Assembly: GCF_900108035.1 (NCBI RefSeq)
Contig: NZ_FNVS01000005.1
Coordinates: 1-64,000, forward strand
DNA length: 64,000 bases
From: Parabacteroides chinchillae
Lineage (GTDB): Bacteria > Bacteroidota > Bacteroidia > Bacteroidales > Tannerellaceae
Reading direction: 5' to 3'
Under the pieces are notes generated by a model. That model was given only the letters and a program-made list of their open reading frames with translations. It searched no databases and was not told the origin of the DNA. Made by a program: the position numbers and the translations under genes. Position 1 is the stretch's first letter. Each line of letters opens with the position of its first letter. Below are positions 4,929 through 47,128 of this stretch, one piece after another.

Positions 4929-6557
4929 TTACTTTGAAGTATAATTCGGATTTTGTGTCAGATTCGGATTGGATGTAAGTACACTTTCCGGAATAGGGAA
5001 TACGGTACGGTAATCGCCTTGCGGTTCGTGTGACAGCCAACTCTTTTTCGTATAAGTTCCGAAGCGGATCATATCGCGGCGACGGTGGGTTTCCCAAGCA
5101 AACTCCCAACCCAATTCGTCATACAGACGTCCGAACTGAACAGGATCAGTATTGCCATCTTTCACAATCTTGTAGTTTTCTACAAAGCCATAGCGATAAG
5201 AGGTGTTTGCTTTCAACTGTTCGTCGGTAACGATAGCCTTTTCAGGATTATCCTTAAAGTTACGTTGACGAACTTGTGTTACCAAAGCCCCTGCACCCGG
5301 TTTGCCTGTGCGCAACAAACATTCGGCCTTCATCAGCAACACTTCTGCATAACGCATCAACGGGAAGTCGGTATCGGAAGAACCCGGTGTACGTGGCAGA
5401 ACTTCAAACTTGTTCATACGGTAACCGTCTGTTTCGTTTGTATAGTTTCCGCTCATTACCTCTTTCTGGAAGCTCAGTGGCTGGCCTTTCTTATCGTATG
5501 TACACATCAACAGCGTTGTTCCGTCGTATGAATATTGGTCACCCATCAACCATGTGTCCGACAAACGTGTATCGGCAGGATCATAGGTGTCGATAAACTG
5601 CGTAATACCCATAGCCGATCCGCTGCCCCAAGGAGTTGCTTCCAAGTCGAACTTCTTCTGCAATTCACCATGCCAAGAAAACATGTGAATGCTTTGGCCA
5701 CCGGCCAGTGTCTTGTCATACGGAATGGTAAACAGGATTTCTTTTGAAGATTCGGTTCCTGTTGCACGGAACGAGTCTTTGTAATTTGGAGACAATGCGC
5801 ATTTGCCGCTGTTGATAATATCATCGCACTGAGCAATACAATCATCCCAATGGCTCTCGCCAACATACACTTCTGCATTCAGATATACGTTTGCCAACAC
5901 ACATTTGGCAGCCCATTTATTAAGACGTCCGTACATCTTGCCGCCTTGTTCTTCGCTCAAGTCAGGAATTGCTTCATTCAACTCGCTTACCACGAAATCA
6001 AAAATTTCTTTACGTGTTACCTTTCCCGGTAAATCTACGGTAGGTTCGGTAAGCAACGGAGCATCGCCGAAATTATCACAAATCAACCAGTAGAAATAAG
6101 CACGCACGGCTCTCAGCTCGGCAATACCTGCTTTTTTTTCTGCATCGGATGCAGCCGGCAATTTGCCTGAAGCAATCTGAGAAAGTACAGTATTTGACAA
6201 CACAACGCCCTGATAGAAACTATTCCACATGTGCAACGGATGCTGCTGTTCGGATGTCCATTTATGATAGTGCATCATACGATATGTCCCACCATCATCC
6301 CAACCGGAAGAGTTGGGTGGCATAACAATTTCGTCGGAACTGATTTCCTGTGCAGCCCAATATCTCTCGTGGGCAATAAAACGGAAATAACTGTACACAC
6401 TTGCAACCGTAGGCCCGAAGTCTTTTTCGGTATAGTTATAGTTTTGTTCGGTTACCTTTGAGAATACTTTCTCATCCAGATTATTGCTGCAGCTTACGGC
6501 AGAACCCATACAAAACAAAGCAACAGCTAATTTAATATATGTCTTCATATTCTTCAC
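4929..6557 (-). CDS. SusD/RagB-family glycan-binding lipoprotein
   Basis: 542 aa. A lipoprotein signal ends at GSAVSC (Cys23), followed by the SNN/DEKVFS start and helical TPR-like architecture of SusD. The C-terminal signature FPLMRYAEVLLMKAECLLRTG is typical, as is the ending on NPNLTQNPNY. SusD proteins form the lid of the outer-membrane SusC transporter and bind an oligosaccharide. The gene starts 3 nt after the SusC stop, so the two are co-transcribed. The promoter in front of SusC carries the operator shared with the arabinoside operon at 35.6-45.5 kb, which suggests an arabinose-containing ligand. Confidence 0.95.
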   Translation of the reverse strand: MKNMKTYIKLAVALFCMGSAVSCSNNLDEKVFSKVTEQNYNYTEKDFGPTVASVYSYFRFIAHERYWAAQEISSDEIVMPPNSSGWDDGGTYRMMHYHKWTSEQQHPLHMWNSFYQGVVLSNTVLSQIASGKLPAASDAEKKAGIAELRAVRAYFYWLICDNFGDAPLLTEPTVDLPGKVTRKEIFDFVVSELNEAIPDLSEEQGGKMYGRLNKWAAKCVLANVYLNAEVYVGESHWDDCIAQCDDIINSGKCALSPNYKDSFRATGTESSKEILFTIPYDKTLAGGQSIHMFSWHGELQKKFDLEATPWGSGSAMGITQFIDTYDPADTRLSDTWLMGDQYSYDGTTLLMCTYDKKGQPLSFQKEVMSGNYTNETDGYRMNKFEVLPRTPGSSDTDFPLMRYAEVLLMKAECLLRTGKPGAGALVTQVRQRNFKDNPEKAIVTDEQLKANTSYRYGFVENYKIVKDGNTDPVQFGRLYDELGWEFAWETHRRRDMIRFGTYTKKSWLSHEPQGDYRTVFPIPESVLTSNPNLTQNPNYTSK

Positions 6558-6560
6558 GTA

Positions 6561-9500
6561 TTAAAATTTAACAGATACACCTAACGTATACGTTCTTGCT
6601 GCCGGATAACGACTCTTATCATCAACACCCGGAGTAAGGCCACCAATGCTGACTTCAGGATCGATGCCCGAATATCCGGTGATGGTAGCCAGGTTAGAGA
6701 TTGTTCCGTAAACACGCAAGCTCTTCACCCAGGTATTAAAGTTGAATGTATATCCCAACGTTACATTGTCGATCTTCCAGTAATCACCCTTTTCTACATA
6801 ATAACTTACATATTGCAAGCCCTGATCGTCGGCCAGAGGAGTTTTGCCATATACTTTATCATAAGAAGTATTGAGGATATTACCACGAGTCAACATGATA
6901 GGAGCGCCAAATTGCAACTTAGCGACATTCAGGATGTCGAATCCGAATGCACCGCGCATCGTTACATTCAAGTCGAAGTTTTTCCATCTAACGGTATTGT
7001 TCCAGTTCAGATAATGCTTAGGAAGACCATTACCGATTACCTTCTTATCGTCGGGAACCTGATCGGCGATAGGTTTCGGATTGCCGTCGGCACCTTCAAT
7101 AATCCAGTGTCCGGTTTCATCAATATCAATACTCTTATATCCGTAGAAATTACCGATAGGCTGGCCTACTTCAATACGGTGTGTGGCCATCTGCATAGGT
7201 TCGGGCAACCATCCCTGATCTGAATAATCATTAGACACATACATATCGCTCGACAAAGAAAGCAACTCACTCTTGTTGGTAGAGTAGTTCACAGATGTCT
7301 GCCATTGCCAGTCTTTTGTCTGTACAGGAAGAGCAGAAACCGTTACTTCAATACCTTGGTTACGAACCGAACCACCATTTGCTGTCATATCAGAATACAA
7401 ATACGGAGGAAGAGGAACTTGGTATCTCCACAACAGGTCGCTTGTTGTACGATGATAATAGTCTACCGTAGCTGTCAAACGGTCGTCCAAGAAACCGGCA
7501 TCGATACCCACGTTGGCCTCTTTCTTACGTTCCCATCTTAGGTTTGGGTTGGCATTGGAAGCCGGACGGATTGTTTTAATAAAAGAGCCGTTATAATATA
7601 CATACGTACCGAAATCCAACGTATTCAATGACATATAAGCCTCTTCCGGAGCCGTACCGGTTACACCATAACCCGCACGCAGTTTCAACTGGCTTAACGG
7701 TTTAACATCCTCCATGAAATCCTCATCCTTAATGCTCCATGCACCTGATACCGATGGGAATGTACCCCATTTATGGTTAGCACCGAACTTAGAAGAACCT
7801 TCGTGACGCACACTGGCAGCCAACATATATTTGCCCTTGTAGCTATAGTTGAAACGACCGAAATAACCAATCAATAAACTTTCGGTTTGTTCAGAATTTT
7901 CAGCAGCGCGGCCGTCTTTCAATGCTTGCCCTGTCTGCATACCATTATAGGTGTAATCGTCAGAAGGGAAGTTGAAGTTCTGCATCCAATAGAACTGATA
8001 GTTTGTACGCATCCAGCTATAACCTCCCAGTAATGAGAATGTATGATCTTTAAACAAAGTCTTTTTCCAGGAAGCAGTCACTTCGGACAGATCGTCTACT
8101 TTACGTTTTGTACCTCTTGAAGCAAAACCGGTTCTGCCGTTTTTATATGAAGCAATATGATTTGTTGTTTCATAATAACCGCGTGTCTGGTTATAAGTAT
8201 TGGATGATACAAGGTATTTAATATCCAACCCCTCAATCGGAGTCAATGTAGCGGAAGCAAACATACGGAGGTTGGTCGCCTGGTTTTCACCTTCTACCTC
8301 TTCCAAAAGAGCCACCGGATTCAAATAGTCTGTTTTTGAAGGGCTTTCAGACCACTTACCATCTTCCCCCCTAACCGGAGTAGTTGGGTTATAAGTAATT
8401 GCATTACGGTATACTTCTTTATTATAACCGTTATCATCATCCGAACCGGCAAAATAAGATTGTTTGTATCCGCTCAAACTAGCATTCAATTTCAACATAT
8501 TGTTAAACATGCGGTGAGTAACTTCCACACGCGGATAATACATCTGGTTCTTGGTACGTTTAATAATACCTTCGATACCACGATATTCGAAACTGGCCAC
8601 ATAATTAGTAGTTTTCGTACCGCCACGCAAGCTGATATTATATATCTGGGTCAGAGGAGTCTGCATTACTTCGTCCAGCCAGTTCGTACTTGAACCGTCA
8701 TCCTGTGCTCCCGGTTTTCCCTGAGCCACCAGATTACGGTATTCATCGGCAGTGAAGAAAGGCAGTTTTTTTGTTATCTGCTGAGTGGCAAGATAAGCAT
8801 TTACATCTACTGATGTAGGCATTTCACCTTTAGCATTCTTTGTTGTGATAAGGATTACACCGTTTGTACCACGGGTACCGTAGATGGCCGCAGCCGAACC
8901 GTCCTTCAAAACGTCGATCTGTTCGATATCGTCCGGTGAAACCATATTCATATCACCTGGTATACCATCAATCAGCACCAGAGGTGCTGCACTTTGCAGC
9001 AAAGTGTTGGCTCCACGCAATGAAATCTGTGAATTCCCCACCGGGTTAGCATCAGGAGTAACAATGCTCAAACCGGCCACCTGGCCACGGATAAGCTGAG
9101 CAGCATCCGAAGTCGGAACCTTCACAAAATTATCAGATTTAATGGTAGAAATAGCGCTGGCTACTTCACCCTTTTTCTGTGTACCATAACCTACAACAAC
9201 CACCTCATCCAGACTTTGTGTATCATCAACCAGACGGATAGTCATCACATTTTGATTACCTACAGGAATATCCTGTGTCAGATAACCAATATAAGAGATC
9301 TGAAGAATTGCTTTATCAGGAACATCCAGGGCGTACTTTCCGTCGATGTCCGTTACAGTTCCGTTTGTAGTACCTTTTACTACAACATTGGCACCAATAA
9401 CAGGTTCGCCGGATTTATCAACCACAGTACCTGTAATCTGACGAGTTTTTTGCTGTGTAATCATAGGACTCGCTTCGTTCTGTACATTACTGCCATCTGC

Positions 9501-9575
9501 AGCATATGTACCAGTAGCAAAAATAAAAGGAGCGATTAAAATTAATTTTGCTATTCGTTTTTTTTCGTTGTGCAT
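6561..9575 (-). CDS. SusC/RagA-family TonB-dependent outer-membrane transporter
   Basis: About 1004 aa from the ATG at 9575 (MHNEKKRIAKL), which gives a normal signal peptide ending near TYAADG. An upstream in-frame ATG at 9617 would add 14 residues and spoil the signal. Domains in order: carboxypeptidase-regulatory-like domain (about 50-120, ITGTVVDKSGEPVIGANV), TonB box DEVVVVGYG, plug domain (SLRGAN, IYGTRGTNGVI), and a 22-strand barrel ending YTLGVSVKF. It imports an oligosaccharide with SusD. A long leader (about 290 nt) separates it from the predicted promoter at 9872-9879. Confidence 0.95.
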   Translation of the reverse strand: MHNEKKRIAKLILIAPFIFATGTYAADGSNVQNEASPMITQQKTRQITGTVVDKSGEPVIGANVVVKGTTNGTVTDIDGKYALDVPDKAILQISYIGYLTQDIPVGNQNVMTIRLVDDTQSLDEVVVVGYGTQKKGEVASAISTIKSDNFVKVPTSDAAQLIRGQVAGLSIVTPDANPVGNSQISLRGANTLLQSAAPLVLIDGIPGDMNMVSPDDIEQIDVLKDGSAAAIYGTRGTNGVILITTKNAKGEMPTSVDVNAYLATQQITKKLPFFTADEYRNLVAQGKPGAQDDGSSTNWLDEVMQTPLTQIYNISLRGGTKTTNYVASFEYRGIEGIIKRTKNQMYYPRVEVTHRMFNNMLKLNASLSGYKQSYFAGSDDDNGYNKEVYRNAITYNPTTPVRGEDGKWSESPSKTDYLNPVALLEEVEGENQATNLRMFASATLTPIEGLDIKYLVSSNTYNQTRGYYETTNHIASYKNGRTGFASRGTKRKVDDLSEVTASWKKTLFKDHTFSLLGGYSWMRTNYQFYWMQNFNFPSDDYTYNGMQTGQALKDGRAAENSEQTESLLIGYFGRFNYSYKGKYMLAASVRHEGSSKFGANHKWGTFPSVSGAWSIKDEDFMEDVKPLSQLKLRAGYGVTGTAPEEAYMSLNTLDFGTYVYYNGSFIKTIRPASNANPNLRWERKKEANVGIDAGFLDDRLTATVDYYHRTTSDLLWRYQVPLPPYLYSDMTANGGSVRNQGIEVTVSALPVQTKDWQWQTSVNYSTNKSELLSLSSDMYVSNDYSDQGWLPEPMQMATHRIEVGQPIGNFYGYKSIDIDETGHWIIEGADGNPKPIADQVPDDKKVIGNGLPKHYLNWNNTVRWKNFDLNVTMRGAFGFDILNVAKLQFGAPIMLTRGNILNTSYDKVYGKTPLADDQGLQYVSYYVEKGDYWKIDNVTLGYTFNFNTWVKSLRVYGTISNLATITGYSGIDPEVSIGGLTPGVDDKSRYPAARTYTLGVSVKF

Positions 9576-9871
9576 TTTTCGGAGAGGTGGTAAACTCTCT
9601 GTACAAATTCTTTCCATACAATTGTAGTGTTTTTATTTAATACTCAGATTTAAGGAGGAGAGTCTTGTACTGATTTTAAATTAAGTAGTATGACTATTCT
9701 CTTTGATTCAAATTTTGTCACTTCCTTACTCCATAGGCTAACAAATTATAAGTTTATATTTATCTCATTTCAGATGAAGCATACATAAATATCATTTGTT
9801 CTACAGCGTCCTATTCATTATCATGAATTATGGTTTATCCACAGCAAATCTTTTATTCGTTTAGAACTTTA
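9576..9871 (-). other. Probable long 5' leader of susC
   Basis: AT-rich sequence between the predicted transcription start (about 9865) and the SusC ATG, with no supported gene. It contains only a short in-frame extension from the alternative ATG at 9617. Leaders of this size in Bacteroidales polysaccharide loci can hold post-transcriptional control sites, but no clear structure was recognised by eye. Confidence 0.4.
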
Positions 9872-9957
9872 CAAATATAGATAATAATATTCCAAACTGA
9901 TACGAACTGGTATGATTAATTTACAATGTTATACAACATAGACCAGTTCGTACCTGT
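9872..9957 (-). promoter_or_regulatory. susC promoter with GntR-type operator (copy 1)
   Basis: A minus-strand -7 box TATATTTG (9872-9879) is followed, 16 nt upstream, by half-site ACTGATACGAACTGGT (9896-9911) and an inverted partner ACCAGTTCGTACCTGT (9942-9957). The spacing between half-site starts is 46 bp. A small dyad ATGTT-N4-AACAT lies between them (9926-9939). The same module recurs before the GRE operon and the GntR gene. A plus-strand -7-like box TAATTTTG (9974-9981) sits 16 nt beyond the distal half-site, although no plus-strand gene follows. Confidence 0.75.
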
Positions 9958-35648: not shown

Positions 35649-37745
35649 TTACTTGCCTTTAACAGGAAGCCAAACTTTATATGCATCTCCCTCCGTACGG
35701 TTTCCTACCGCATAATACGGAATGGCAGACACGGCAATCTCCTTCTCATCCTTATCGAATGCTTTGCCTTCTATCACATTAATCCCGCTCAAAAGGTCGC
35801 TGCGATAGTTCAAAGACATAGGAGATCGGGTATCAAACCTGATATCTTTCAGGTCTGTATTATCGCAACCCTCCAGACAATACACCAGCGGACCCGAAGC
35901 AAGGGCTACCATACTATTCAGGTCGGTAACAGATCCATCGGCAGTGATGATACGGGGTTGCATCGGCAACGACAGTTCTACCTTATCGCCTTTAGCCCAT
36001 TTACGATTGATCTCAGCATAGCCTTTTACAACGTTCATTTGCACCGGCTCGCCGTTCACCTTCAGTTCTGCAGGAGAGTTTACATCTGACTTATAAAGTC
36101 CATAGGGATTCTCGACGCCTTGTGCCCATCCGGGTATGCGTACACGCAATGCGAAATCGGCCGGCTTAGCCGGATCTACCGTCAGCGTAACAGATCCGTC
36201 CCACGGATATCGCGTTTCTTGCTTAACGGCTACAGACAGGTTTTTGCTAAGGTTAACGGTAGCTTCACTGCCGATAAACAGATTCACAGAGATTGTGTTG
36301 CCCTGATGTGAATAGATAAAGCCGGGAACGGCCGAAACCATCTTCAGGAACATGGGCGGGCAGCAGGGACATTCGTGCCACTCCCAGCGTGCATGCTTTT
36401 CGGCATTCAGGGGGTTCTGATACGTATAATGATCGCCGGACAGAGAAATTCCGGTCAATACGTTATTGTAGAGGGAACGCTCGAACTCATCCATATACTT
36501 ACCATCTCCGGTGAGTTCGTTCATACGCTGGCTAAAGAAGCCTGCACCAACAGCAGCACATGTTTCCAAATAAGCATCCGTTGGTAAATAATAGTCGGGG
36601 CCGAATTTTTCGTCGAAATGAACGGCTCCAACACCACCGGTTACGAACATACGCTTACCCACCATGTTATCCCACAAACGGGTTACGGCAGCAATATAAT
36701 CAGGGTTCTTATTTTCCAGAGCAGCGGCAGCAACACCTGTTGTAAAGAGGGTGGCACGAACGGCGTGTCCTTCTATTGTTTGTTGCTGGAACAGGGGAAG
36801 AGAATCTTGCGCATAGTCGCCGAAAGAAGGGCGCGAATGATTGCCGAACTGAAGATCGGCATATTTATTATCGCGGATCCACTGCTCGGCAACCGGATTA
36901 CCCCAAGTCAGCCACAAAGGCTGTCCGCAGTTATGGCCACGGTTCTCGATCCAGAACGTAGCCAAATCAAAATAGGCTTGTTCGTTTACCGGAACACTTA
37001 CTTTTTGTTTAAGGTCCGGATTATTCTTGTATAACCAATACAGTTTAACAAGCGGTTCTTCCGAACCGGAATGAGCCGGAACAATGTTCTTTTTAGGATA
37101 CGGCCCCATGTAATCGCACATATGGTTGGCAAAGCGGGTAGCCACTTCCAGTAATTTAGTCTTACCTGTAGCATTATAATAATGCACACCTGCCTCAACA
37201 AGCATACCGGCATTATATACATCATGCTGCCAACGGAGCATACCGCCGTTTTCACCCCAGCGATGATTGTCTTCCATCAGCTGGGTATAAGTGTTGATAA
37301 AGCCGTCGGGGTCGGAGGCCTGTGCCTTGGCAATAAGGTCGATATAACCGTCCACACGCTGTTCGAGAGCCTGATTAGACTGTTGGGCAATAAGGTCGGA
37401 AACGCCACGGATCGTCTCATATACCAAACCGTCAAACCATGGCATACCGGCATGGTCTCCCACATTACGCTCGCCATTAGCCACACGGTCGAAGTTTTCG
37501 AACGTATTGTGCATCTTCTTAGGGTCCGGGTTATGAAGGTGTTTGCCTTCAAACTTGTCGAACACATCGTTGGTGGTAACCTTATTCCACTGTTCAAATT
37601 TAGGTTTCCAGAAAGCATCCTGAACCTTTACCTGATTTACTTCCAGAAAATGAATACCTGTATCCGTATTCTCCTGCTCGCCCGGAGAGCAAGCAACGGC
37701 TCCCAACAGAAGGCAAGCCGGTAATGTGAGTGCATGTAGTTTCAT
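35649..37745 (-). CDS. GH127 beta-L-arabinofuranosidase-family lipoprotein
   Basis: 698 aa, longer than the 618-aa paralogue at 833. Lipobox GAVACS (Cys19). Catalytic positions are conserved: Glu379 (HFDEKF), E394-T-C396, and the Cys461-Cys462 pair in ECPCCPP. Several insertions between 210 and 320 (such as GQPLWLTWGNP) set it apart from the other two copies, hinting at a different aglycone or linkage. It is the last gene of the operon, 15 nt behind the epimerase gene. Confidence 0.86.
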   Translation of the reverse strand: MKLHALTLPACLLLGAVACSPGEQENTDTGIHFLEVNQVKVQDAFWKPKFEQWNKVTTNDVFDKFEGKHLHNPDPKKMHNTFENFDRVANGERNVGDHAGMPWFDGLVYETIRGVSDLIAQQSNQALEQRVDGYIDLIAKAQASDPDGFINTYTQLMEDNHRWGENGGMLRWQHDVYNAGMLVEAGVHYYNATGKTKLLEVATRFANHMCDYMGPYPKKNIVPAHSGSEEPLVKLYWLYKNNPDLKQKVSVPVNEQAYFDLATFWIENRGHNCGQPLWLTWGNPVAEQWIRDNKYADLQFGNHSRPSFGDYAQDSLPLFQQQTIEGHAVRATLFTTGVAAAALENKNPDYIAAVTRLWDNMVGKRMFVTGGVGAVHFDEKFGPDYYLPTDAYLETCAAVGAGFFSQRMNELTGDGKYMDEFERSLYNNVLTGISLSGDHYTYQNPLNAEKHARWEWHECPCCPPMFLKMVSAVPGFIYSHQGNTISVNLFIGSEATVNLSKNLSVAVKQETRYPWDGSVTLTVDPAKPADFALRVRIPGWAQGVENPYGLYKSDVNSPAELKVNGEPVQMNVVKGYAEINRKWAKGDKVELSLPMQPRIITADGSVTDLNSMVALASGPLVYCLEGCDNTDLKDIRFDTRSPMSLNYRSDLLSGINVIEGKAFDKDEKEIAVSAIPYYAVGNRTEGDAYKVWLPVKGK

Positions 37746-37760
37746 ATATCCTGTTATTTA

Positions 37761-38885
37761 TTATTTCACTCCGAATTTATATACGCAAATATGTTTATAC
37801 TGTTCCCCCGGTTTCAATACGGTAGAAGGGAAGTTCGGATGATTCGGACTATCGGGGAAATGTTGTGTTTCCAAAGCCAGCGAAGCCCTGTAATTGTACT
37901 TTTGTCCGCGTTTGCCAATCATCGAACCGTCAAAGAAGTTGCCTCCATAGAACTGGATGCCCGGCTCGGTAGTCCAAACTTCCATATATCTGCCCGAAAC
38001 GGGTTCGTGAACGGAAGCAGCCAGTTCCAATTCGTTGGCTGTCTTGCGCTTTAGTACCCAGTTATGGTCATATCCATGTCCGAAGGCAAGTTGCTCGAAA
38101 TTGTTGTCTACCCGCTCACCGATAGGGGTTGCCTTGCGAAAATCCATCGGGGTATCAGTTACATCAGTCAGTTCTCCGGTAGGAATCAGCACATTATTCA
38201 CCGGTGTAAATTTATCTGCATTAAGCATCAATACATGGTCGTTGATCGTACCGTTGCCTGCGCCATGCAGATTAAAGAAAGAATGATGCGTGAGGTTGAT
38301 TACGGTATTCTTGTCGGTGGTAGCCTCGTGCGTGATAACAAATTCGTTGTCATTGGAAAGGTGGTAGGTCATCTTCACCTTCATGGTTCCAGGATAGCCC
38401 TGCTCGCCATCTTTGGACACATAAGACAGCACCAATGTCTGGGGGTTTGTTTGATCCGCATCCCATACTACCATGTCGAAACCTTTGTCGCCACCATGCA
38501 GACTGTTAGGCTTATCATTAATAGGGAGCTGATAATCTTTACCGTCCAGCGTAAACTGTCCCTTATCGATACGGTTGCCGTAGCGGCCGATCGTTGCACC
38601 GAGGAAACGTTCGCCCTTGTAGTTCGCGTAAGCGTTTACATTGTCGTGTCCCAGCACAATGTCTGCAAACTGTCCGTTCTTGTCGGGAGCCCATATCTCC
38701 ACAACCCGGCCTCCGAAGTTGGTAACGGCAATCTCTACCCCGTTTTTATTTGTCAGATAATATAAGTCGGTCTGTTTACCGTCTACCTTTGCCTGAAAGT
38801 CTGCCCTGCCCAACCTGGAGTGGCGGGCTTGTCCGTCTTGTATACCCATCATAGATAAAAGAATTAAGAATAATATTTGTTTCAT
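37761..38885 (-). CDS. galM: Aldose 1-epimerase (mutarotase), exported
   Basis: 374 aa with a signal peptide (MKQILFLILLSMMGIQDGQA). Mutarotase motifs: GATIGRYGNRI, NSLHGGDKGFD, LTHHSFFNLHG (catalytic His), and FGHGYDHNWVL. The C-terminal ETQHFPDSPNHPNFPS contains the catalytic Glu. It interconverts alpha and beta anomers of the sugar released by the glycosidases, probably in the periplasm. It lies in the operon between two GH127 genes with 15-20 nt gaps. Confidence 0.93.
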   Translation of the reverse strand: MKQILFLILLSMMGIQDGQARHSRLGRADFQAKVDGKQTDLYYLTNKNGVEIAVTNFGGRVVEIWAPDKNGQFADIVLGHDNVNAYANYKGERFLGATIGRYGNRIDKGQFTLDGKDYQLPINDKPNSLHGGDKGFDMVVWDADQTNPQTLVLSYVSKDGEQGYPGTMKVKMTYHLSNDNEFVITHEATTDKNTVINLTHHSFFNLHGAGNGTINDHVLMLNADKFTPVNNVLIPTGELTDVTDTPMDFRKATPIGERVDNNFEQLAFGHGYDHNWVLKRKTANELELAASVHEPVSGRYMEVWTTEPGIQFYGGNFFDGSMIGKRGQKYNYRASLALETQHFPDSPNHPNFPSTVLKPGEQYKHICVYKFGVK

Positions 38886-38905: not shown

Positions 38906-41311
38906 TTACTTTGTTACATATCGCATCTTACAACCAAAGATCCCTCCGGCTATATTGCCGGGAAGCGCTTGGAGTTTCACAGTAACCTTTTCTCTCCCCC
39001 GGGTAAGCACTTCGGGAAGAAGATAAGGATGATCAATAAACAAATCAAATGTTTCGGTGCGGAGGCTTTGCTCTGCTATCTTGGTGTCACCCACCCATAT
39101 CTCAAACTGGCGGTTGCCGCCATCGGTGCTATGATAGGTCAAAACCAGCTCCATCGGTTTGTCGGGAAGTACTTTCAGGTCGTATGAGAACCATCCGTCC
39201 TGTGCATCGCGCCAGCCGCCCGATTTGTCGGCCCGCGTATTCTCTCCCCGAAGGTTATGAGCAGCCTCCGACTTTTCCTGTCCGATCAGCACCTCATCTA
39301 CCACGCGCAGTTCCTCCTGCAGGCTGGATACGATCTTTTCGCCGTTCCGAGGTAGCCAGACTTTCATTTCGCCGGCTCCGCGATAAGCCCGGGCATAGTA
39401 GGGAATAAAAGTAATACGGGTATCCTCAGACTGTATTTCTTTCCCTCCTGCCTTAGCGGTATACTTCTTTCCGGCAGCTATAATCGTATAAATACCATTC
39501 ATCAGGTCGGGACGCTTTTTCACTTCATACGAAGTCTTTCCGGGCAGCGACAGATTACGGACTTCGCCATTATTATCGACAAATTCTGCACAATAAACCA
39601 GCGGACCCCGTTCTACGGCAACAAGTCCATTATTTGTCTTAACGGCATCATTGGTTATAACCTGACGCGGTTCCATTGGAAAGGAGACGGTTACTCTATC
39701 GCCTTTTTTCCATTTATTTGTAATGATGGCATAGCCTTTTTCCTGCTGGTACTTGTATGGCTTACCATTCAAGAATATCTGCACATTGCCCTTCTGCTTT
39801 CCAACGAAGCTATACAGGTCGGAAGGAACAACACTTTCTTTGGCCCATCCCGGAATACGTATTTTCAGATCAAAGGAATTTGTTTCTACCGGATTCACCG
39901 TGATAGCCACATCACCACTCCAGGGATAATCGGTTTGCTGTTCAAGCAATACCTTACGGCCATTAAACTGTACCTCACCCGAACCGCTTACAAAAAGATT
40001 GGCATAAATAGATTTATCGTCTACCGCATAGATATATCCCGGAACGGCGGGGATAAACCGGGACAAGTTGGTAGGACAACAAGAGCAATCAAACCACAGG
40101 CTGCGTTCCTGTCCGTTTTTATTTGTCTCCAACACATTCGGATAAAAGAACATATCACCACTTATGGATATACCGCTCAAAACAGTATTGTAGAGCGAAC
40201 GTTCCAGTACATCTATATATTTGGCATCGCCGTGAAGCTTAAACATGCGGAGATTGAACATGCAGTTGGCAATAGAAGCGCAGGTTTCGCAATAGGCAGT
40301 TGCATTAGGCAGTTCATAGTTCTTGCCGAAAGCCTCGTTATTGGCTGTCGATCCCAATCCTCCGGTCAGGTACATCTTCTTGCCTACTATGTTGCTCCAG
40401 ATAGAATCGATAGCGTTCAGATAGGCCTTATCCTGCATGTGCAAGGCTATGTCGGCCATCCCGGAATAAAGGTAGAGGGCACGTACGGCATGTCCCACAG
40501 CCTCGCGCTGTTCGGTAACAGGCAGATGATCCTGCCAATACATACCGTTTTTACGTATATCGGCCGAGGTTTTATCAAAAACTTTATGCCCGCGGCTTTC
40601 AAGGAAATAACGGCATTGTTTGAGGTATTTCTCATCACCGGTTGCTTCATAAAGCCTCACAAGAGCCATTTCGATAACTTCATGTCCCGGGGCTATCTTC
40701 AGACCTCCCTCACGGAATACACTGCAAATCAGGTCGGCATTCTTAATGGCCACATCCAGCAAAGAGCGTTTGCCGGTTGCATAGTAATAAGCTATGGCAG
40801 CTTCATAAAGTTCGCCGGCATTAAATGTCTCATGACTCAAATTCCAATCCTGAACCCATCTCTCCTTTCCAACCCACGGGTGGAGCGGATTATTGATGGT
40901 ATGGTTCGTGAAGAGGTAGCCATCCGGTTCCTGCGCCGAAGCTATAATAGCAATAATGCTATCCATATATGCTTCCAGTTCCGGATCTTTCTTTACAGTC
41001 AACAGGTAAGAAGCTCCTTCGGCTATTTTATATACCTCGGCATCATCAAAAGGAAAGGCCGATTGGTATTTTCCTTGCTTCAAACCGCCGGCTATAGCGA
41101 AATTATCTATATATCCGGCCTTTTCACTACGTTTGAAAGCGTATGGAATTGTTTTTGTACGGATTGTATCGATCCGGGGTGCCCAGAAGTTATCCGTACA
41201 ATGTACAGAGGTAAAAGGGACTTCATGTATTTTACTTTTCCCTTCATTTGCGGCATACCCACTGAAAACAGAGAGCAGGGTAATGACAAGGATTGTTATT
41301 GTCTTTTTCAT
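38906..41311 (-). CDS. GH127 beta-L-arabinofuranosidase with C-terminal accessory domain
   Basis: 801 aa. Sec signal (ITLLSVFSGYA) without lipobox, so soluble periplasmic or secreted. Catalytic set: Glu326 (NNEAF), E342-T-C344, and Cys411-Cys412 in DCSCCPT. The final 130 residues (about 670-801) form an extra beta-rich domain (AAHNLRGENTRADKSGGWRD, VLTYHSTDGGNRQFEIWVG) of the DUF6805 kind, probably carbohydrate binding. Operon gene 4, 12 nt after the sugar porter. Confidence 0.87.
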   Translation of the reverse strand: MKKTITILVITLLSVFSGYAANEGKSKIHEVPFTSVHCTDNFWAPRIDTIRTKTIPYAFKRSEKAGYIDNFAIAGGLKQGKYQSAFPFDDAEVYKIAEGASYLLTVKKDPELEAYMDSIIAIIASAQEPDGYLFTNHTINNPLHPWVGKERWVQDWNLSHETFNAGELYEAAIAYYYATGKRSLLDVAIKNADLICSVFREGGLKIAPGHEVIEMALVRLYEATGDEKYLKQCRYFLESRGHKVFDKTSADIRKNGMYWQDHLPVTEQREAVGHAVRALYLYSGMADIALHMQDKAYLNAIDSIWSNIVGKKMYLTGGLGSTANNEAFGKNYELPNATAYCETCASIANCMFNLRMFKLHGDAKYIDVLERSLYNTVLSGISISGDMFFYPNVLETNKNGQERSLWFDCSCCPTNLSRFIPAVPGYIYAVDDKSIYANLFVSGSGEVQFNGRKVLLEQQTDYPWSGDVAITVNPVETNSFDLKIRIPGWAKESVVPSDLYSFVGKQKGNVQIFLNGKPYKYQQEKGYAIITNKWKKGDRVTVSFPMEPRQVITNDAVKTNNGLVAVERGPLVYCAEFVDNNGEVRNLSLPGKTSYEVKKRPDLMNGIYTIIAAGKKYTAKAGGKEIQSEDTRITFIPYYARAYRGAGEMKVWLPRNGEKIVSSLQEELRVVDEVLIGQEKSEAAHNLRGENTRADKSGGWRDAQDGWFSYDLKVLPDKPMELVLTYHSTDGGNRQFEIWVGDTKIAEQSLRTETFDLFIDHPYLLPEVLTRGREKVTVKLQALPGNIAGGIFGCKMRYVTK

Positions 41312-41323
41312 GATTATATGAAG

Positions 41324-42640
41324 TTATGTAAGTTCTTTCTGAATCTGTTCGAGCGACTTATTACGTGTCTCCGGCAACTTAATGGCAAACACAAGGCTTC
41401 CCAGGGCAATAACCGAGAAGAATCCGAAAATATAAGTCCCCCCTATGGAGAGGAAAATCGGGAAGAACCACGACAACAGAGCCGACCATACCCAATGCGT
41501 CATACTTCCGAACACCTGTCCTTTAGCACGCACACTATTAGGAAACACTTCCGAGATTACCACCCAGATAGTAGCACCCAATGATACAGCAAAGAAAGCA
41601 ATGTACCCCATCAAGCTCAACATCATATAGTAGCCTTCAAACTTCTCAAGATAGAACCCTCTGGCTACAAGAAACAACGACAAGAACATGCCGATAGATC
41701 CAAAACCTATCAATTTTTTTCGCCCTACTTTATCTATCAACAGCATGCCGATCATTGTAAACGTCAGGTTAGTCAGCCCGATAACAATGGACTGCATCAT
41801 CGCACCTTCACGGAATACACCAGACAATTCAAATATACGCGGAGCATAATAAAGGATCGCATTGATGCCTGTAAGCTGGTTGAAAGAAGAGATAAGAAAG
41901 GCTATCAATACGGGATAAAAGTATTTCTTCTGGAAAAGATTTTCGCCGACAACTTCCGTATCTTCAAGGGATTCTTCAATAGATTTCACTTCTCTATCCA
42001 CATCCGGTTCGCCAATCTTACGAAGCACCATGCGGGCTTTATCCACAAGGTTTTGTTTGATAAGCCAGCGGGGACTTTCGGGTACGGTCATTAACAGCAA
42101 CCCGAACAGAAGGGCCGGAATGGCTTCTATGCCAAGCATCCATTGCCAGTCGTGAGGTATACCTACAATATTATAATTCGCAACGTATGCTATCACAATG
42201 CCCAATACGATATTAAACTGGAAGAAAGCTACAAAACGTCCTCTCCAGTGTGAAGGAGATACTTCGGCAATATACATAGGTCCTACAACAGAAGAGGCTC
42301 CCACTGCAAGTCCACCCATAAAGCGGAAAAACATAAACGAATACCAGTTCACAATAACAGCACTGCCTATAGCCGAAACGAGGTAAAGGTACGCAATCAC
42401 AATAAGTGACCAACGGCGTCCGTATTTCTCGGCAGGTTTACCGCAGATCAAAGCACCGATAATAGTACCGATCAGCGCCGTAGCAATTGTGAAGCCGTGG
42501 GCAAAATCCGAAAGGTTGTAGACGGCCTGGATTGACTTCTCGGCTCCCGAAATAACCGCCGTATCAAATCCGAATAAAAGGCCGCCCAACGATGCTACAA
42601 AAGCGATGTAAAACATAAAACCTTTCACTGTAGTTTTCAT
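41324..42640 (-). CDS. Sugar porter of the major facilitator superfamily (XylE/AraE type)
   Basis: 438 aa, 12 transmembrane helices. Sugar-porter signatures: GFDTAVISG in helix 1, EKYGRRWSL and RGRFV loops, PESPRWLIK in the central loop, FNQLTGINAILYYAP in helix 7, and KVGRKK; it ends in PETRNKSLEQI. It imports a monosaccharide by proton symport across the inner membrane, probably the arabinose set free by the flanking GH127 enzymes. Lies 20 nt after the GRE gene. Confidence 0.93.
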   Translation of the reverse strand: MKTTVKGFMFYIAFVASLGGLLFGFDTAVISGAEKSIQAVYNLSDFAHGFTIATALIGTIIGALICGKPAEKYGRRWSLIVIAYLYLVSAIGSAVIVNWYSFMFFRFMGGLAVGASSVVGPMYIAEVSPSHWRGRFVAFFQFNIVLGIVIAYVANYNIVGIPHDWQWMLGIEAIPALLFGLLLMTVPESPRWLIKQNLVDKARMVLRKIGEPDVDREVKSIEESLEDTEVVGENLFQKKYFYPVLIAFLISSFNQLTGINAILYYAPRIFELSGVFREGAMMQSIVIGLTNLTFTMIGMLLIDKVGRKKLIGFGSIGMFLSLFLVARGFYLEKFEGYYMMLSLMGYIAFFAVSLGATIWVVISEVFPNSVRAKGQVFGSMTHWVWSALLSWFFPIFLSIGGTYIFGFFSVIALGSLVFAIKLPETRNKSLEQIQKELT

Positions 42641-42660: not shown

Positions 42661-44730
42661 TTAAAGTCCAAATTCAATCCGGTTGATTACATGATCCTGG
42701 TAACATTCGTCCAGCTCCACAAAATAACCGCTCCATCCCCAGACACGGACAATCAGGTTGCGATAGTTCTCCGGATGCTTCTTTGCATCCAACAGTTTCT
42801 CCTTGCACACAGTATTCAACTGGAGTTGATGACCGCCTAAAGTAATAAAAGTTCTGACAAGCATACCCAGCTTGGCCACACTTTCATCGTTGCGGAATAC
42901 AGATTGATCGAATTCCAGGGTGAGAGGTCCACCGTTAACCACATTCTTTAAATCGGGCTTTGCAAACGATTTAATAACGGATAACGGCCCCTTTTGCTTA
43001 ATATACAAGCTGGGAGAATAATTAGCCGGAATTTTCTCATCGGCACTTCTACCGTCGGGAGTAGCTCCCAACTCCGTTGCATGGAATATATAGTACATAG
43101 CTGTTCCGGTTCCGGCGCGGTAAACGCCTCCTTTCTCATTGATCCGGCCTTGCAGTGCCCGATCGAAAGAGTTTAGAAGGTCTCTGGCAATCAAATCGAC
43201 ATAGTCGTCGTCCTGCCCCATCTTGGGAGCTTCTTTACGAAGCAACTCCTGCAGTTCTTTTTCTTCTTTGAAGTTATGGGTAAGCGCATTCATCCAAGCA
43301 CTATAATCCACCTTCTGCTCCTCATAATAATATTTTTTGATGGCAGCCAATGAATCGGCAGCCGTAGCTATACCTGTTCCATGGATTCCGTAATTATTAT
43401 ATTTGCCGCCTTCAGATATATCTTTTGCCCGCTCAATAGTTCCGTCCATAAGTAATGACATCATAGGAGCCGGAATCATATAAATGTTATGATGCTTTTT
43501 ACACATCGCATCCAACCGGTTTGCCATTTCTTTTTCTATCAAACTGTAGAAAGAGGCATAATCCGGACAGTCTTTCAGTTGTTCCATGCAATCTCTTACA
43601 CACTCTATTAAAGACAAAGCGTCAATATTAGGTATGTCCATAGCTACTCCGGGAATAATAAACTCCCAGCAGGCCGCCACTACATAATTATAGGCGTCTT
43701 CTTCAGCATATCCTTTCCGGATCAGGCCGGGGATAACAACATCGTCATTACTGTATTGCGGGAAACCCAACCCTATCTTGGTAAGTTGTGAACCCAGTTC
43801 GTAAATTTCGGCAGGAGTATCTCTGTCTACGCGGATATTGATTTTAGGATCGATCAGTTCCAGTTCGTAGCTTGCCTGCAAACACATACGGGAGAGTTCG
43901 TTAAACAGGTATTCACCCGTCATGCTTCTTCCGCCCAACACCATGCTCTGCCCATTGTCTCCTTGCTGCATGCCCGGATACAGATCGCTGTCTTTATTAC
44001 ATACCAGGAAGAACTCTTCCAACAGATCAAATGCGTCTTCTTTCGTTAACACACCGTTCTCAATATCCCGGATATAATACGGATACATATACTGGTCGAA
44101 ACGGCCTAACGTATTATGATAATTGCCGGCCTCCCAAATAGAAAAATGAAGAATACGCAGCAATTGAAGGGCTTCGCGGAAACTGGTAGCGCCGTTACAC
44201 TTAATAGCCTGCAAAGTCGTCGCAATCTCTGTTTCTCCAACCGACAACGCATATTGCGCATACTTTTCGATACAATCCTGAAGAGACACAAGACTGCTAT
44301 AGGCAGAAAGCAGAAATTCTTTTTGATCCTTTGTCAGGCCGGCATCTTCCAGTCTTTTGCTTATTTCTTCCTTTCGGGCTTCAAGGCCGTATGTTAATGT
44401 ATAGGCATAATCGGGAGAAATATTGCAAACATATCCCTTCTCATGTATATAATGACTCGTTTTAATAGCATCCCATTCCTCTTTTGTAAACACTTCGGGC
44501 ACTTCTGTAACCGTACGTGTAAAGACTATCTTTTCTCCCGGTAAGATAACAGGCTGTTCTTTCTCAAGCATAGCAGAGAAGCAGGCGGCAGAACGCTTTA
44601 CCGGAGAAAATCCGCTTGCCTTATATTCGTCACTCAGGTTTTGTATTCCCAACTCACCGGGAGTTCTGCGAAACTGATGGTGCTTCTTGTCCAGTAAATA
44701 CTCCCGTAGATTTTTTATTCTTTCATTCAT
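42661..44730 (-). CDS. Glycyl radical enzyme of unknown reaction (PFL-like fold)
   Basis: 689 aa, shorter than the usual 760-850 aa. GRE landmarks: LGRFDQYMYPYY (208-219), an active-site Cys354 in AACWEF with Glu356 two residues on, GATPDGR (555-561), and the C-terminal radical loop RVWGWSG with Gly665. Pyruvate formate-lyase has two adjacent Cys; here the pair is Ala-Cys followed by W-E. This resembles the Cys-x-Glu of GRE dehydratases and lyases (CutC, diol and hydroxyproline dehydratases). I infer a dehydratase or eliminase on a polyol or sugar, not PFL. It shares an ATGA overlap with its activase gene and heads an arabinoside-processing operon. No aldehyde dehydrogenase or microcompartment gene accompanies it. 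Confidence 0.85.
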   Translation of the reverse strand: MNERIKNLREYLLDKKHHQFRRTPGELGIQNLSDEYKASGFSPVKRSAACFSAMLEKEQPVILPGEKIVFTRTVTEVPEVFTKEEWDAIKTSHYIHEKGYVCNISPDYAYTLTYGLEARKEEISKRLEDAGLTKDQKEFLLSAYSSLVSLQDCIEKYAQYALSVGETEIATTLQAIKCNGATSFREALQLLRILHFSIWEAGNYHNTLGRFDQYMYPYYIRDIENGVLTKEDAFDLLEEFFLVCNKDSDLYPGMQQGDNGQSMVLGGRSMTGEYLFNELSRMCLQASYELELIDPKINIRVDRDTPAEIYELGSQLTKIGLGFPQYSNDDVVIPGLIRKGYAEEDAYNYVVAACWEFIIPGVAMDIPNIDALSLIECVRDCMEQLKDCPDYASFYSLIEKEMANRLDAMCKKHHNIYMIPAPMMSLLMDGTIERAKDISEGGKYNNYGIHGTGIATAADSLAAIKKYYYEEQKVDYSAWMNALTHNFKEEKELQELLRKEAPKMGQDDDYVDLIARDLLNSFDRALQGRINEKGGVYRAGTGTAMYYIFHATELGATPDGRSADEKIPANYSPSLYIKQKGPLSVIKSFAKPDLKNVVNGGPLTLEFDQSVFRNDESVAKLGMLVRTFITLGGHQLQLNTVCKEKLLDAKKHPENYRNLIVRVWGWSGYFVELDECYQDHVINRIEFGL

Positions 44731-45500
44731 AAGACTATCGTATTTATATTATTATCTTCAAAGACATTATAAACTCGTGGAGGTATTTCCGGATCAAACG
44801 GAGGATTATATTCTTTGCCTATCATGGAATACTTGGCACCGGCCATTTTATGGTAACGGAGTATTTCTACTCTTTGTAATGACTTTGCATCCCTGATTAT
44901 ATCCAGAACAGCAAGCATATTTTCTTTTGTATCGTTTATTCCCGGAATCAGGGGTATGCGTATAACAAAGTCTTTACCGGAGGAGCACAAACATTCCAGA
45001 TTTTTACGTATTAACTGGTTATCCACCCCCGTATATTTCTTATGTATCGCAGGATCTGTATGTTTGACATCAAACAACACTAAATCCAGTAAAGGAAGAA
45101 CTTCACGAAAAACCTCCTCCGAAGCGAAGCCACTTGTTTCAATTGCCGTATGTATTTCAGGCTTTATCTTACGGAGTACATTCAGCAAGAAACCGTATTG
45201 CAACAAAGGCTCTCCTCCCGTAAAAGTGACCCCGCCTTTATTTAATGAATAAATTTCTTTATTCTTCAAAAGCCGGCTTGCCAGTTCATCTGCAGTAATC
45301 CGATAACCACATACAGTTGTTTCATCCTTCTTCATCATATACTGTGGCTCAGGAGAGATTCCTTCCGGATTATGGCACCACACGCAATGCAACGGACAGC
45401 CTTTCAGAAAAACGGTAGTCCGGATACCTGGCCCGTCATTGACGGCAAACTCTTCAATGCTAAAGATTGTTCCTTGTTGTATGGAGTTCAAACTATTCAT
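44727..45500 (-). CDS. Glycyl-radical-enzyme activating enzyme (radical SAM)
   Basis: 257 aa. The radical SAM motif C35-x3-C39-x2-C42 (GCPLHCVWC) follows the GRE-AE signature IEEFAVNDGPGIRTTVFLKG; a SAM-binding GGVTFTGGEPLLQ follows. It abstracts hydrogen from Gly665 of the GRE. The segment between the motif and residue 75 is short with a single Cys, so the two ferredoxin-type clusters common in non-PFL activases are missing, giving a PFL-AE-like minimal enzyme. It is the first gene of the operon, about 26 nt downstream of the predicted start of transcription. Confidence 0.93.
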   Translation of the reverse strand: MNSLNSIQQGTIFSIEEFAVNDGPGIRTTVFLKGCPLHCVWCHNPEGISPEPQYMMKKDETTVCGYRITADELASRLLKNKEIYSLNKGGVTFTGGEPLLQYGFLLNVLRKIKPEIHTAIETSGFASEEVFREVLPLLDLVLFDVKHTDPAIHKKYTGVDNQLIRKNLECLCSSGKDFVIRIPLIPGINDTKENMLAVLDIIRDAKSLQRVEILRYHKMAGAKYSMIGKEYNPPFDPEIPPRVYNVFEDNNINTIVL

Positions 45501-45532: not shown

Positions 45533-45617
45533 CAAATATAGAGAATAATATTCCAACTGATACGAACTGGTACGATGTTTTTATCATGTTATTAAACATA
45601 GACCAGCTCGTACCAGT
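45533..45617 (-). promoter_or_regulatory. GRE-operon promoter with GntR-type operator (copy 2)
   Basis: -7 box TATATTTG (minus strand, 45533-45540), half-site ACTGATACGAACTGGT (45556-45571) and inverted half-site ACCAGCTCGTACCAGT (45602-45617), with starts 46 bp apart as in copy 1. The central dyad ATGTT-N4-AACAT is at 45586-45599. The flank from 45533 to 45571 is almost identical to copy 1. Between 45618 and 45840 only an AACCATA/TATGGTT hairpin near 45720 is seen. Confidence 0.78.
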
Positions 45618-46023: not shown

Positions 46024-46132
46024 CAAATATAAACAAATCATTCACACTGGTACGAACTAGTCTATTATTTTTGTCTGTGTTATTAAACATAGACCAGCTC
46101 GTACCAGCCAGAACTAATTAACCATATCTTTG
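46024..46132. promoter_or_regulatory. Divergent promoter-operator of the GntR regulator (copy 3)
   Basis: A leftward -7 box TATATTTG (46024-46031), half-sites ACTGGTACGAACTAGT (46046-46061) and ACCAGCTCGTACCAGC (46093-46108), and a rightward -7 box TATCTTTG (46125-46132). Each -7 box lies 14-16 nt outside its half-site, so the operator covers both -33 regions. Half-site starts are 47 bp apart. This predicts autoregulation of the GntR gene, whose transcript would start near 46139. Confidence 0.75.
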
Positions 46133-46150
46133 TACAATAAAATAAGAGAA

Positions 46151-47128
46151 ATGAGAGTTAACGAATCAAAGTACAAGTTAGTGGTAAACCACGTTATAGA
46201 AGGTATTAATAACGGAACATATAAAAAAGGAGATTGGATTCCTTCTATAAATGAATTCAGGAAAAATTATACCTTATCCAGAGATACCGTTTTTGCCGGA
46301 TTAAGCGAACTAAAGTCAAAAGGTATAATCGATTCCAATCCCGGAATAGGTTATTATGTGACAAGTACAAGAATAACCCAGAAACACAACATATTCCTAT
46401 TGTTCAATGAACTTAATGAATTTAAAGAAGACCTGTATAACTCATTCATGGAGTCAATAGGAAAAGTTGCCACTGTAGATATCTATTTTCACAATTATAA
46501 CAGGAAAGTATTCGAAACGCTTATTAACGAAGCAAACAATAAATATACTACTTATATCTTAATGCCCGGAAAATTTGCAGGCATCGATCCTTTACTCCAA
46601 AGCTTATCAGGTAATGTATTTTTACTAGATCATTTCCATTCGGAACTAAAAGGGAAATACTCTTCTGTTGCACAAAATTTTGAAAAAGACACGTACGAAG
46701 CACTTGTCCACGGTTTATCCCATATAAAGAAATATCACCATATAATTATGGTCCAGAAAGAAGAGAAAGAACCGGTTGAACGTTATATAGGACTCTGTTC
46801 GTTTTGTAAAGACTATAATTTCACGCACGAGTATATTGGTTCCATCAAGGACAGAAGCCTTAACGCAGGTGAAATCTACATGGTAGTAAACGATCGTGAT
46901 CTGGTAGACCTGTTAAAACAGGCAACCAAACAAAACTTCATTCCCGGAAAAGACTTCGGTATCATATCTTATAATGACACTCCTTTAAAAGAGATTCTGG
47001 CAGGAGGTATCACTACGCTATCTACAGACTTTAAGCTTATGGGTCAAACAATGGCTTCCCTGGTTAATAAAAAAGGAATCGAAACCATTGAAAATCCATG
47101 GCAACTAAATTTAAGGAATTCATTATAA
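46151..47128 (+). CDS. GntR-family regulator with LacI-like sugar-sensor domain
   Basis: 325 aa from ATG 46151, 19 nt after a consensus -7 box; a TTG start at 46130 would lie inside that box and is rejected. N-terminal winged helix (about 5-70; GTYKKGDWIPSINEFRKNY, LSRDTVFAGLSELKSKGII). The C-terminal periplasmic-binding-protein-like domain (about 78-325; HNIFLLFNEL, FGIISYNDTPLKEILAGGIT) binds a small ligand, as in AraR-type repressors. The likely ligand is arabinose or a derivative, inferred from the operon it borders and the GH51 remnant. Confidence 0.88.
   Translation: MRVNESKYKLVVNHVIEGINNGTYKKGDWIPSINEFRKNYTLSRDTVFAGLSELKSKGIIDSNPGIGYYVTSTRITQKHNIFLLFNELNEFKEDLYNSFMESIGKVATVDIYFHNYNRKVFETLINEANNKYTTYILMPGKFAGIDPLLQSLSGNVFLLDHFHSELKGKYSSVAQNFEKDTYEALVHGLSHIKKYHHIIMVQKEEKEPVERYIGLCSFCKDYNFTHEYIGSIKDRSLNAGEIYMVVNDRDLVDLLKQATKQNFIPGKDFGIISYNDTPLKEILAGGITTLSTDFKLMGQTMASLVNKKGIETIENPWQLNLRNSL

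Follow-up and report, generated by a model that had tools for sequence, protein, structure and literature searches.

Within a 64,000-nucleotide window of the Parabacteroides chinchillae genome (assembly GCF_900108035.1, contig NZ_FNVS01000005.1, positions 1 to 64,000), we identified a glycyl radical enzyme (GRE) with the active-site triplet Cys-Trp-Glu (CWE). Its sequence indicates that it is a new, uncharacterised subfamily, separate from the characterised ones. The genes of this GRE and its activase overlap by 4 nt (ATGA) and head a tight six-gene operon that continues with a sugar porter, two GH127 glycosidases and a mutarotase. Our reading is that the GRE dehydrates a free neutral sugar or alditol, here most likely L-arabinose or L-arabinitol, by radical cleavage of a C-O bond, and we give this reading a probability of about one half. 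The substrate, the C-O cleavage, the product and the downstream steps are all inferred from the sequence and its context.

If this reading is true, the GRE would provide a missing route by which gut and rumen anaerobes degrade one of the commonest plant sugars, and some of the abundant GREs of unknown function could be assigned one. Such GREs are many, according to the available parts of a 2024 review (PMC11574389). A gut-type Bacteroidales GRE, an oxygen-sensitive enzyme, that is wired to genes for freeing and importing arabinose suggests an unrecognised anaerobic breakdown of a common plant sugar, and the operator data described below make the question of its substrate directly testable. To our knowledge, GREs acting on sugars are hardly known; YbiW and PflD act on phosphorylated anhydrohexitols. 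In the literature that we searched, mostly outside subscription journals, we found no description of a GRE that has arabinose as its substrate or a link to GH127.

The family of this GRE was defined by a collection scan. The best 80 of 586 related stretches are 44-70% identical to it and come from records named Bacteroidales, Verrucomicrobia, Clostridia, Spirochaetes and Thermoguttaceae. Nine partial or split loci were excluded, so the family alignment holds 72 rows (the window GRE and 71 of the 80 loci). The first-pass annotation, which had been made from the letters of the window, placed the catalytic residues at Cys354, Glu356 and Gly665. All three lie at these positions within AACWE and Trp-Gly665-Trp, which are invariant in 72/72 full-length members. 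Glu356 stands two residues past the cysteine, as in GREs of the dehydratase and lyase type. Also invariant in the 72 rows are N103, H205, K296, N298, R300, Y326, N328, D329, N368 and H450, together with D247, D249, Q255, D258, N259 and Q261 of the polar loop 247-261. This loop and Trp355, Trp664 and Trp666 near the cysteine and glycine may form a pocket for a neutral sugar.

The GRE matched the Pfam profiles PFL-like (322.3 bits, cut-off 24.3) and Gly_radical (73.9 bits, cut-off 22.2), and it reached no NCBIfam GRE equivalog, missing the equivalog cut-offs by a factor of at least 3.8. It scored 287.5 bits with HypD (NF043068, cut-off 1100), 267.1 with PRK09983, which we take to be PflD (cut-off 1109), 234.7 with CutC (TIGR04394, cut-off 1050), and 241.4 and 231.3 with the sulfopropanediol dehydratases NF048009 and NF048011 (cut-off 1000). 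The score with the PFL2-3 subfamily TIGR01774 was 324.8 bits, below its cut-off of 678.2. Pyruvate formate-lyase has two adjacent cysteines; the window GRE has A353-C354 and scored 74.6 bits with that equivalog (TIGR01255, cut-off 994). Among solved chains, the family profile scored highest with glycerol dehydratase (391 bits), followed by PflD (381), diol dehydratase (370) and CutC (354). The first three are all C-O-cleaving enzymes, PflD according to the available parts of PMC12441222 and the other two by name. Given these relatives and the retained Cys, Glu and Gly, the GRE would be expected to abstract a hydrogen beside the C-O bond that breaks.

The tree agreed with these scores in setting the GRE apart, as the first-pass annotation had suggested. 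It was calculated from 45 rows, 22 of the 72 family rows and 23 other GREs from P. chinchillae, Diplocloster, Hungatella, Eisenbergiella, C. symbiosum and CE91-St56, and is unrooted, with a midpoint root for drawing. At least L143, L152, L154 and the second of the two L041 GREs escaped the C-terminal pattern filter by which rows were chosen. The window GRE and 21 sampled homologs formed one group (support 100/99), and 13 rows, including those that pass the CutC, HypD and HpfG cut-offs, formed a separate one (96/97). Two GREs of a Cys-Gln-Glu (CQE) type (L142, L144) joined the CWE side (99/97). The triplet by itself does not define the family, since L135, on a long branch, also reads CWE.

It is very improbable that the GRE is a hydroxyproline dehydratase or another characterised GRE (acting on choline, sulfopropanediol, glycerol or pyruvate) that lies beside sugar genes by chance. 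Cys-x-Glu is present, and arabinosylated extensins carry hydroxyproline, which the first-pass annotation had listed as a candidate substrate. However, the equivalog scores and the tree separate the family from these enzymes, and its sugar context recurs. In addition, the second dehydratase-type GRE of the genome is a HypD over the cut-off (L100:6891-9296, 1178 vs 1100 bits), and hydroxyproline was rejected as the substrate on that ground. Rarity was assessed in samples drawn from larger groups, with the centre genome counted in each and E <= 1e-100. The GRE was found in 1/393 genomes of the order and in 5/392 of the Diplocloster order. Among 59 genomes of the taxonomic family, the CWE GRE is confined to P. 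chinchillae; the remaining 21 matches, in 20 genomes plus the HypD of P. chinchillae, are 30-33% identical and lie in open frames of 794-903 aa.

The organisation of the operon was as first annotated: activase and GRE are coupled, and the porter, both GH127s and the mutarotase follow directly on the same strand with gaps of 12-20 nt (Table 1). The Pfam scores were 76 bits for Radical_SAM and 357 and 331 bits for the two GH127s. The best equivalog of the porter is XylE (357/608 bits, below the cut-off), and the subfamily SP is passed (327 vs 238). By eye, neither the GRE nor the activase has a signal peptide. Since both GH127s and the epimerase, likewise by eye, carry signal or lipoprotein peptides, arabinosides would be cleaved in the periplasm and the GRE chemistry would be cytoplasmic. 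Among solved chains, the 801-residue GH127 matched 6ex6 (693 bits) and 4qjy (473 bits), the 698-residue GH127 matched 6ex6 best (357 bits), and the third GH127 of the window (833-2689) matched best 4qjy, a GH127 beta-L-arabinofuranosidase (517 bits). The structure file labels 6ex6 merely 'six-hairpin glycosidase'; we take it to be the B. thetaiotaomicron GH127 BT3674, a beta-L-arabinofuranosidase.

Table 1. Features of the window that belong to the GRE operon and its putative regulon.
Feature	Position	Strand	Remarks
GRE, 689 aa, CWE subfamily	42661..44730	-	Cys354-Trp355-Glu356; radical Gly665 in RVWGWSGYF
Radical SAM GRE activase, 257 aa	44727..45500	-	TIGR02494 255 bits, cut-off 174
MFS sugar porter	41324..42640	-	Sugar_tr 356 bits; 20-nt gap after GRE
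GH127, 801 aa, with DUF6805, putative beta-L-arabinofuranosidase	38906..41311	-	12-nt gap; signal peptide by eye
Aldose 1-epimerase (mutarotase)	37761..38885	-	Aldose_epim 300 bits; 20-nt gap; signal peptide by eye
GH127, 698 aa	35649..37745	-	15-nt gap; lipoprotein signal by eye
GntR regulator, divergent from GRE operon	46130..47128	+	listed TTG start; true start may differ
SusC-like TonB-dependent transporter, same putative regulon	6561..9617	-	
SusD-like glycan-binding protein	4929..6557	-	
Third GH127, 618 aa	833..2689	-	3' of SusC/SusD, same strand
Two operator copies 5' of activase	45555..45616 (45555-45574, 45599-45616)		pattern scan
Two operator copies 5' of GntR gene	46047..46107 (46047-46064, 46090-46107)		pattern scan
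Two operator copies 5' of SusC	9895..9956 (9897-9914, 3 mismatches; 9939-9956, 1 mismatch)		

Predicted operators would extend the operon to a regulon. The gap between the GntR and activase genes contains CTGGTACGARCTRGTCTA three times and a fourth, degenerate copy, a pattern derived from these window copies themselves. In a scan of the whole genome with at most one mismatch, a single CTGGTACGARCTRGTCTA copy was found outside the gap, at 9939-9956, 5' of SusC/SusD. With three mismatches, five matches were found, including that at 9897; lone matches of this quality mean little because the reversed-pattern control gave four matches in all. The GRE operon and SusC/SusD appear, on these predicted sites, to be under common operators of the divergent GntR, so that the arabinoside link is partly regulatory. 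The GntR protein has a weak Pfam match to a periplasmic-binding-protein-like (sugar-binding-like) domain. A GDSL-like gene (3231-4805) separates the third GH127 from SusC/SusD. The first-pass annotation had mentioned neither the GntR gene and its operators, nor SusC/SusD with the same operators, nor the third GH127.

Similar sites were found beyond the window. CGTACCAGTYCGTAYCAGTT with at most one mismatch stands directly 5' of the GRE in 7/80 other loci (L007, L008, L009, L010, L011, L036 and L047), and a second copy with 3-4 mismatches lies in the divergent GH127/activase gap of L007, L008, L010, L011 and L047. The closest window relative of these divergent GH127s is the one at 35649-37745. 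Over 2.0 Mb, CGTACCAGTYCGTAYCAGTT at up to 4 mismatches gave two unrelated matches (L004:8644, L057:10925), and the reversed control gave one. The pattern was refined by eye on L004, L007, L009, L010 and L047, while L008, L011 and L036 were unseen beforehand; as it was shaped on some of the loci scanned, this evidence is partly circular. The predicted operators couple the GRE to GH127 in six Bacteroidales loci, including the window, which is stronger support for the GH127 link than gene proximity.

Gene proximity was assessed by tblastn over 84 other GRE loci, which corrects for genes missed in GC-rich loci by the choice of open reading frames. The DNA around the GRE contains an activase homolog in 76/84 of these loci, GH127 in 12/84 and GH127 or GH51 in 22/84. 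GH127 genes are present somewhere in 44/50 genomes counted, and they lie near the GRE in 8/50 loci against 1.0 expected by position (P ~1e-5, by a Poisson test in which loci count as independent and the general tendency of glycosidase genes to cluster is disregarded). Thus the linkage of the GRE to GH127 that the first-pass annotation proposed does recur, with operators in common in five other loci. An araA gene beside the GRE in L026 also speaks for the link to arabinose. Sugar porter homologs were found in 21/84 other loci and mutarotase homologs in 11 loci including the window. An inositol-monophosphatase-type protein adjoins GH127 in L007, L010 and L047, and the activase in L009. A phosphatase of the haloacid dehalogenase (HAD) superfamily, of MDP-1 type, was found in L020 and L023, and another HAD protein in L071, L073 and L074.

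The usual arabinose route may be incomplete in P. chinchillae. AraA_N was absent in a profile search of this genome (listed completeness 99.99%) that matched all five control genomes. The sole Aldolase_II protein lies in a rhamnose cluster. Three FGGY kinases were assigned, partly by eye, as glycerol kinase-like, rhamnulokinase-like and a lone xylulokinase-like protein, the last of which is possibly a ribulokinase. The absence of AraA is consistent with a replacement route.

Several observations weigh against arabinose as the substrate. AraA is present in 18/50 GRE-bearing genomes (of unstated completeness) and in 31/59 genomes of the taxonomic family, P. chinchillae not being among the 31, and we do not hold that the GRE replaces AraA as a strict rule. 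AraA is also missing from 27/58 relatives in the taxonomic family without the CWE GRE, which makes its absence in P. chinchillae weak evidence. The window operon has no reductase, kinase or aldolase. The sole GH127-type NCBIfam equivalog that responded to the window GH127s is aceric acid hydrolase, below the cut-off (463 and 347 of 950 bits), and judged from their sequences the specificity of these enzymes is not fixed. Neither GH127 nor GH51 was found in the DNA around the GRE in 62/84 other loci. Other sugars are suggested by an Mgl-type importer in L026 (MglA 771/828 bits), an alpha-rhamnosidase with a GH88/GH105-type gene in L035, a lacto-N-biose-phosphorylase (GH112) type gene in L049, where an aldo-keto reductase (AKR) is also found, and GH36 or raffinose-synthase-type genes in 8 loci (GH36 in L017 and L020, raffinose-synthase-type genes in six Clostridia loci). 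The clostridial contexts, with rhamnose and galactose genes or with an aldolase and a kinase, show that there may be substrates besides arabinose. We do not accept arabinose as the single substrate of the whole GRE family; the range of substrates could be wider, or could vary from clade to clade.

These contexts, together with the GH88/GH105-type genes of L031, L032 and L051, would also be expected if the GRE acted on some other component released together with arabinose, for example L-rhamnose, galactose, an alditol or a substituent of the plant wall, and if the link to arabinose in the window were incidental to a broader plant-glycan regulon. We consider this rather unlikely, since the operators tie the GRE to GH127 in the six Bacteroidales loci and the best matches of the window GH127s are 6ex6 (twice) and 4qjy. 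Moreover, the side chains of arabinogalactan proteins carry L-arabinose capped with galactose and arabinopyranose, according to the available parts of PMC10688797 and PMC8939339. Such capping could explain the GH36- and GH39-type genes with arabinose as the end product. It could also be that the contrary glycosidase contexts all serve pectin or arabinogalactan-protein side chains and yield arabinose too. The proposal of the first-pass annotation that the GRE acts on arabinose or a component of the same glycan is supported in part, as the GH127 linkage recurs and operators are common to the GRE and GH127; arabinose itself is a presumed substrate, given the clostridial contexts.

Candidates for the subsequent steps were found at other loci. 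Bacteroidales loci hold little besides the porter, mutarotase and glycosidases, and some clostridial loci carry metabolic genes. In Diplocloster (L031 and L032), a run in one direction with the GRE includes a Zn-alcohol dehydrogenase, an FGGY kinase (XylB 375/380 bits), DeoC and an AKR. The DeoC is above the NCBIfam cut-off (229 vs 117 bits), and the AKR resembles L-glyceraldehyde-3-phosphate reductase at 412/448 bits, short of the cut-off. Also in the run are the activase (by tblastn in L031), a lactonase-like protein, a gene that looks MFS-like by eye and, in L031, a TIM-barrel protein. The clostridial metagenome-assembled genome of L051 has, in one direction, the GH88/GH105-type gene, a LacI-like gene, the GRE, the activase, a lactonase-like gene, an FGGY kinase and DeoC, with the Zn-alcohol dehydrogenase opposite. 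L109 has a class II ketose-bisphosphate-type aldolase, an ADP-dependent-kinase-like protein, the GRE and the activase, with ABC importer genes and an RpiR-like regulator by eye. PfkB kinases lie around the GRE in L024, L041 and L081; those of L024 and L081 are encoded on the opposite strand. The class II aldolase of L016 was not counted as linked metabolism because its score exceeds the cut-off of a general fructose-bisphosphate aldolase equivalog (615 vs 511 bits). Kinase and aldolase genes thus recur beside the GRE in few loci. The statement of the first-pass annotation that no kinase accompanies the GRE is correct for the window operon and does not extend to L031, L032, L051 and L109.

With L-arabinose as the sugar, the pathway would proceed as follows. 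SusC/SusD would import arabinosides, from which the periplasmic GH127 enzymes would release L-arabinose. The mutarotase would equilibrate its anomers, and the MFS porter would carry it into the cytoplasm. The activase would put the radical on Gly665, from where it would move to Cys354, which would abstract hydrogen from a carbon that bears a hydroxyl. Glu356 and a His close by would aid the departure of the neighbouring C-O bond, and the hydrogen would be given back to form a deoxy sugar. This product would then be split by the action of a kinase and an aldolase, which are GRE-linked in some Clostridia and would have to be encoded elsewhere in the P. chinchillae genome. His205 aligns with the glycerol dehydratase His in the profile alignment, but not in the MAFFT alignment.

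A deoxy sugar product would suit DeoC, and the best fit to DeoC would be a 2-deoxypentose formed by dehydration of an alditol. A ketose would suit the class II aldolase. One specific version, which we put forward tentatively and would not bet on, is that L-arabinitol is converted to 2-deoxy-L-pentose and then, by a kinase and deoxyribose-phosphate aldolase, to acetaldehyde and L-glyceraldehyde 3-phosphate. The AKR would be accounted for by a sugar of the L configuration, whose cleavage would yield L-glyceraldehyde 3-phosphate.

Alternatively, the GRE might open the ring of a cyclic aldose in the manner of YbiW/PflD, which, given the hydroxyl on C1, would convert L-arabinose to a ketose (as a radical isomerase) or to an anhydro-ketose. 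We regard this as distinctly unlikely. PflD is the second-best solved relative, and YbiW/PflD cleave anhydrohexitol phosphates to 1-deoxyfructose 6-phosphate, as reported in the available parts of PMC12441222. The recurrent mutarotase homologs would suit a ring substrate, and the missing AraA of P. chinchillae and the class II aldolase with a kinase in L109 would suit a ketose-forming enzyme. However, DeoC in L031, L032 and L051 is at odds with a ketose product, araA adjoins the GRE in L026, and neither ribulokinase nor ribulose-phosphate epimerase was identified in the P. chinchillae genome, where assignments were made partly by eye.

If the GRE is a dehydratase of arabinose or arabinitol, the CWE family might further be the entry enzyme of an AraBAD-independent radical pentose route, through a 2-deoxy sugar, phosphorylation and a DeoC-type split into acetaldehyde and a triose phosphate, within a wider, so far unrecognised set of 'sugar GREs'. 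This generalisation is doubtful as yet. Every 'sugar GRE' would be paired with exo-glycosidases and an importer of its own, such as arabinosidases in the window, rhamnosidases in L154 and ABC sugar importers in L142 and L144. In L154 (6333-8612, Prolixibacteraceae), a second GRE of 759 aa is flanked by a GH78-type and a GH106-type alpha-L-rhamnosidase, and a gene there reads by eye as MFS-like. This GRE reaches no NCBIfam equivalog and is a possible rhamnose counterpart of the arabinoside-linked GRE. The Diplocloster CQE GREs (L142:6706-8973 and L144:6572-8827) adjoin ABC sugar importer genes by eye, with a Zn-alcohol dehydrogenase beside both (scanned in L142) and a GH32-like protein in L144.

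Other GREs were encountered in these genomes. A 671-residue GRE of Hungatella hathewayi (L156:5971-7986, the same gene as that of L135) has CWE and RVWGF and sits, by eye, in a surface-polysaccharide synthesis cluster; a biosynthetic role would be unusual for a GRE. In Eisenbergiella and CE91-St56, GREs (L148, L149, L150 and L151) have Cys-Asn-Trp in place of Cys-x-Glu, a different active site within the superfamily. L041:1-8185 contains two tandem activase-GRE pairs, with only 25% identity for the second GRE; an FGGY kinase and a PfkB kinase come after them. The Diplocloster agilis genome of L031 (G417) has sixteen TIGR01774 match pieces at 15 places; two of the places contain one in-frame stop each, and at two the scores are the same.

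As for the activase, the window protein has no ferredoxin-like CxxCxxC insertion, a feature that the first-pass annotation had also left unmentioned; the insertion is present in 48/67 activase open reading frames examined. It is missing from the seven Bacteroidales activases compared and also from that of Lachnospirales L110. On the opposite strand, a DUF6259 protein (30848-33121, +) and a GFO/IDH/MocA oxidoreductase (33887-35326, +) adjoin the GRE operon, and the operator scans of the window found no site at either gene.

Among known systems, the best solved relative is the B12-independent glycerol dehydratase (PDB 1r8w; 253 bits with the single sequence, 391 with the family profile). Both enzymes have Cys-x-Glu and a glycyl radical loop, and in one of the two alignments a His of the GRE falls in the region of glycerol dehydratase H281. 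However, glycerol dehydratase has 787 residues against 689, and GCVEP and RVAGYS in place of AACWEF and RVWGWSG. Its H164 and D447 correspond to the invariant Asn103 and Asn368, a difference that also counts against our reading, as the GRE pocket must be unlike that of glycerol dehydratase. Together with the Trp of the triplet and the Asp/Asn/Gln loop, these Asn residues suggest a larger neutral polyhydroxy substrate.

PflD/YbiW, the 1,5-anhydrohexitol-6-phosphate GREs, match the family profile with 381/300 bits. According to the available parts of PMC12441222, they act on a sugar-like ring whose product is metabolised further, and their substrate is phosphorylated by the phosphotransferase system (PTS), whereas the GRE is accompanied by an MFS porter or, at some clostridial loci, by ABC importers. 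PTS genes were not searched for; a PTS-type gene was seen by eye a few genes past the activase in L109. HypD shares the superfamily and Cys-x-Glu, but the GRE reaches 287.5 of 1100 bits and P. chinchillae has its own HypD. The Diplocloster CQE GREs form the branch nearest the CWE group apart from L135; they are of about 750 aa, lack the 255-261 loop residues of the CWE GRE and reach no equivalog. The AraBAD route has the presumed sugar and the role in common with the GRE, although AraA was not found in P. chinchillae. In L026, araA, at a place that agrees with the AraA_N match of that genome, is divergent from the GRE, and its neighbours read as araB and araD by eye, so that the AraBAD route and the GRE are not mutually exclusive.

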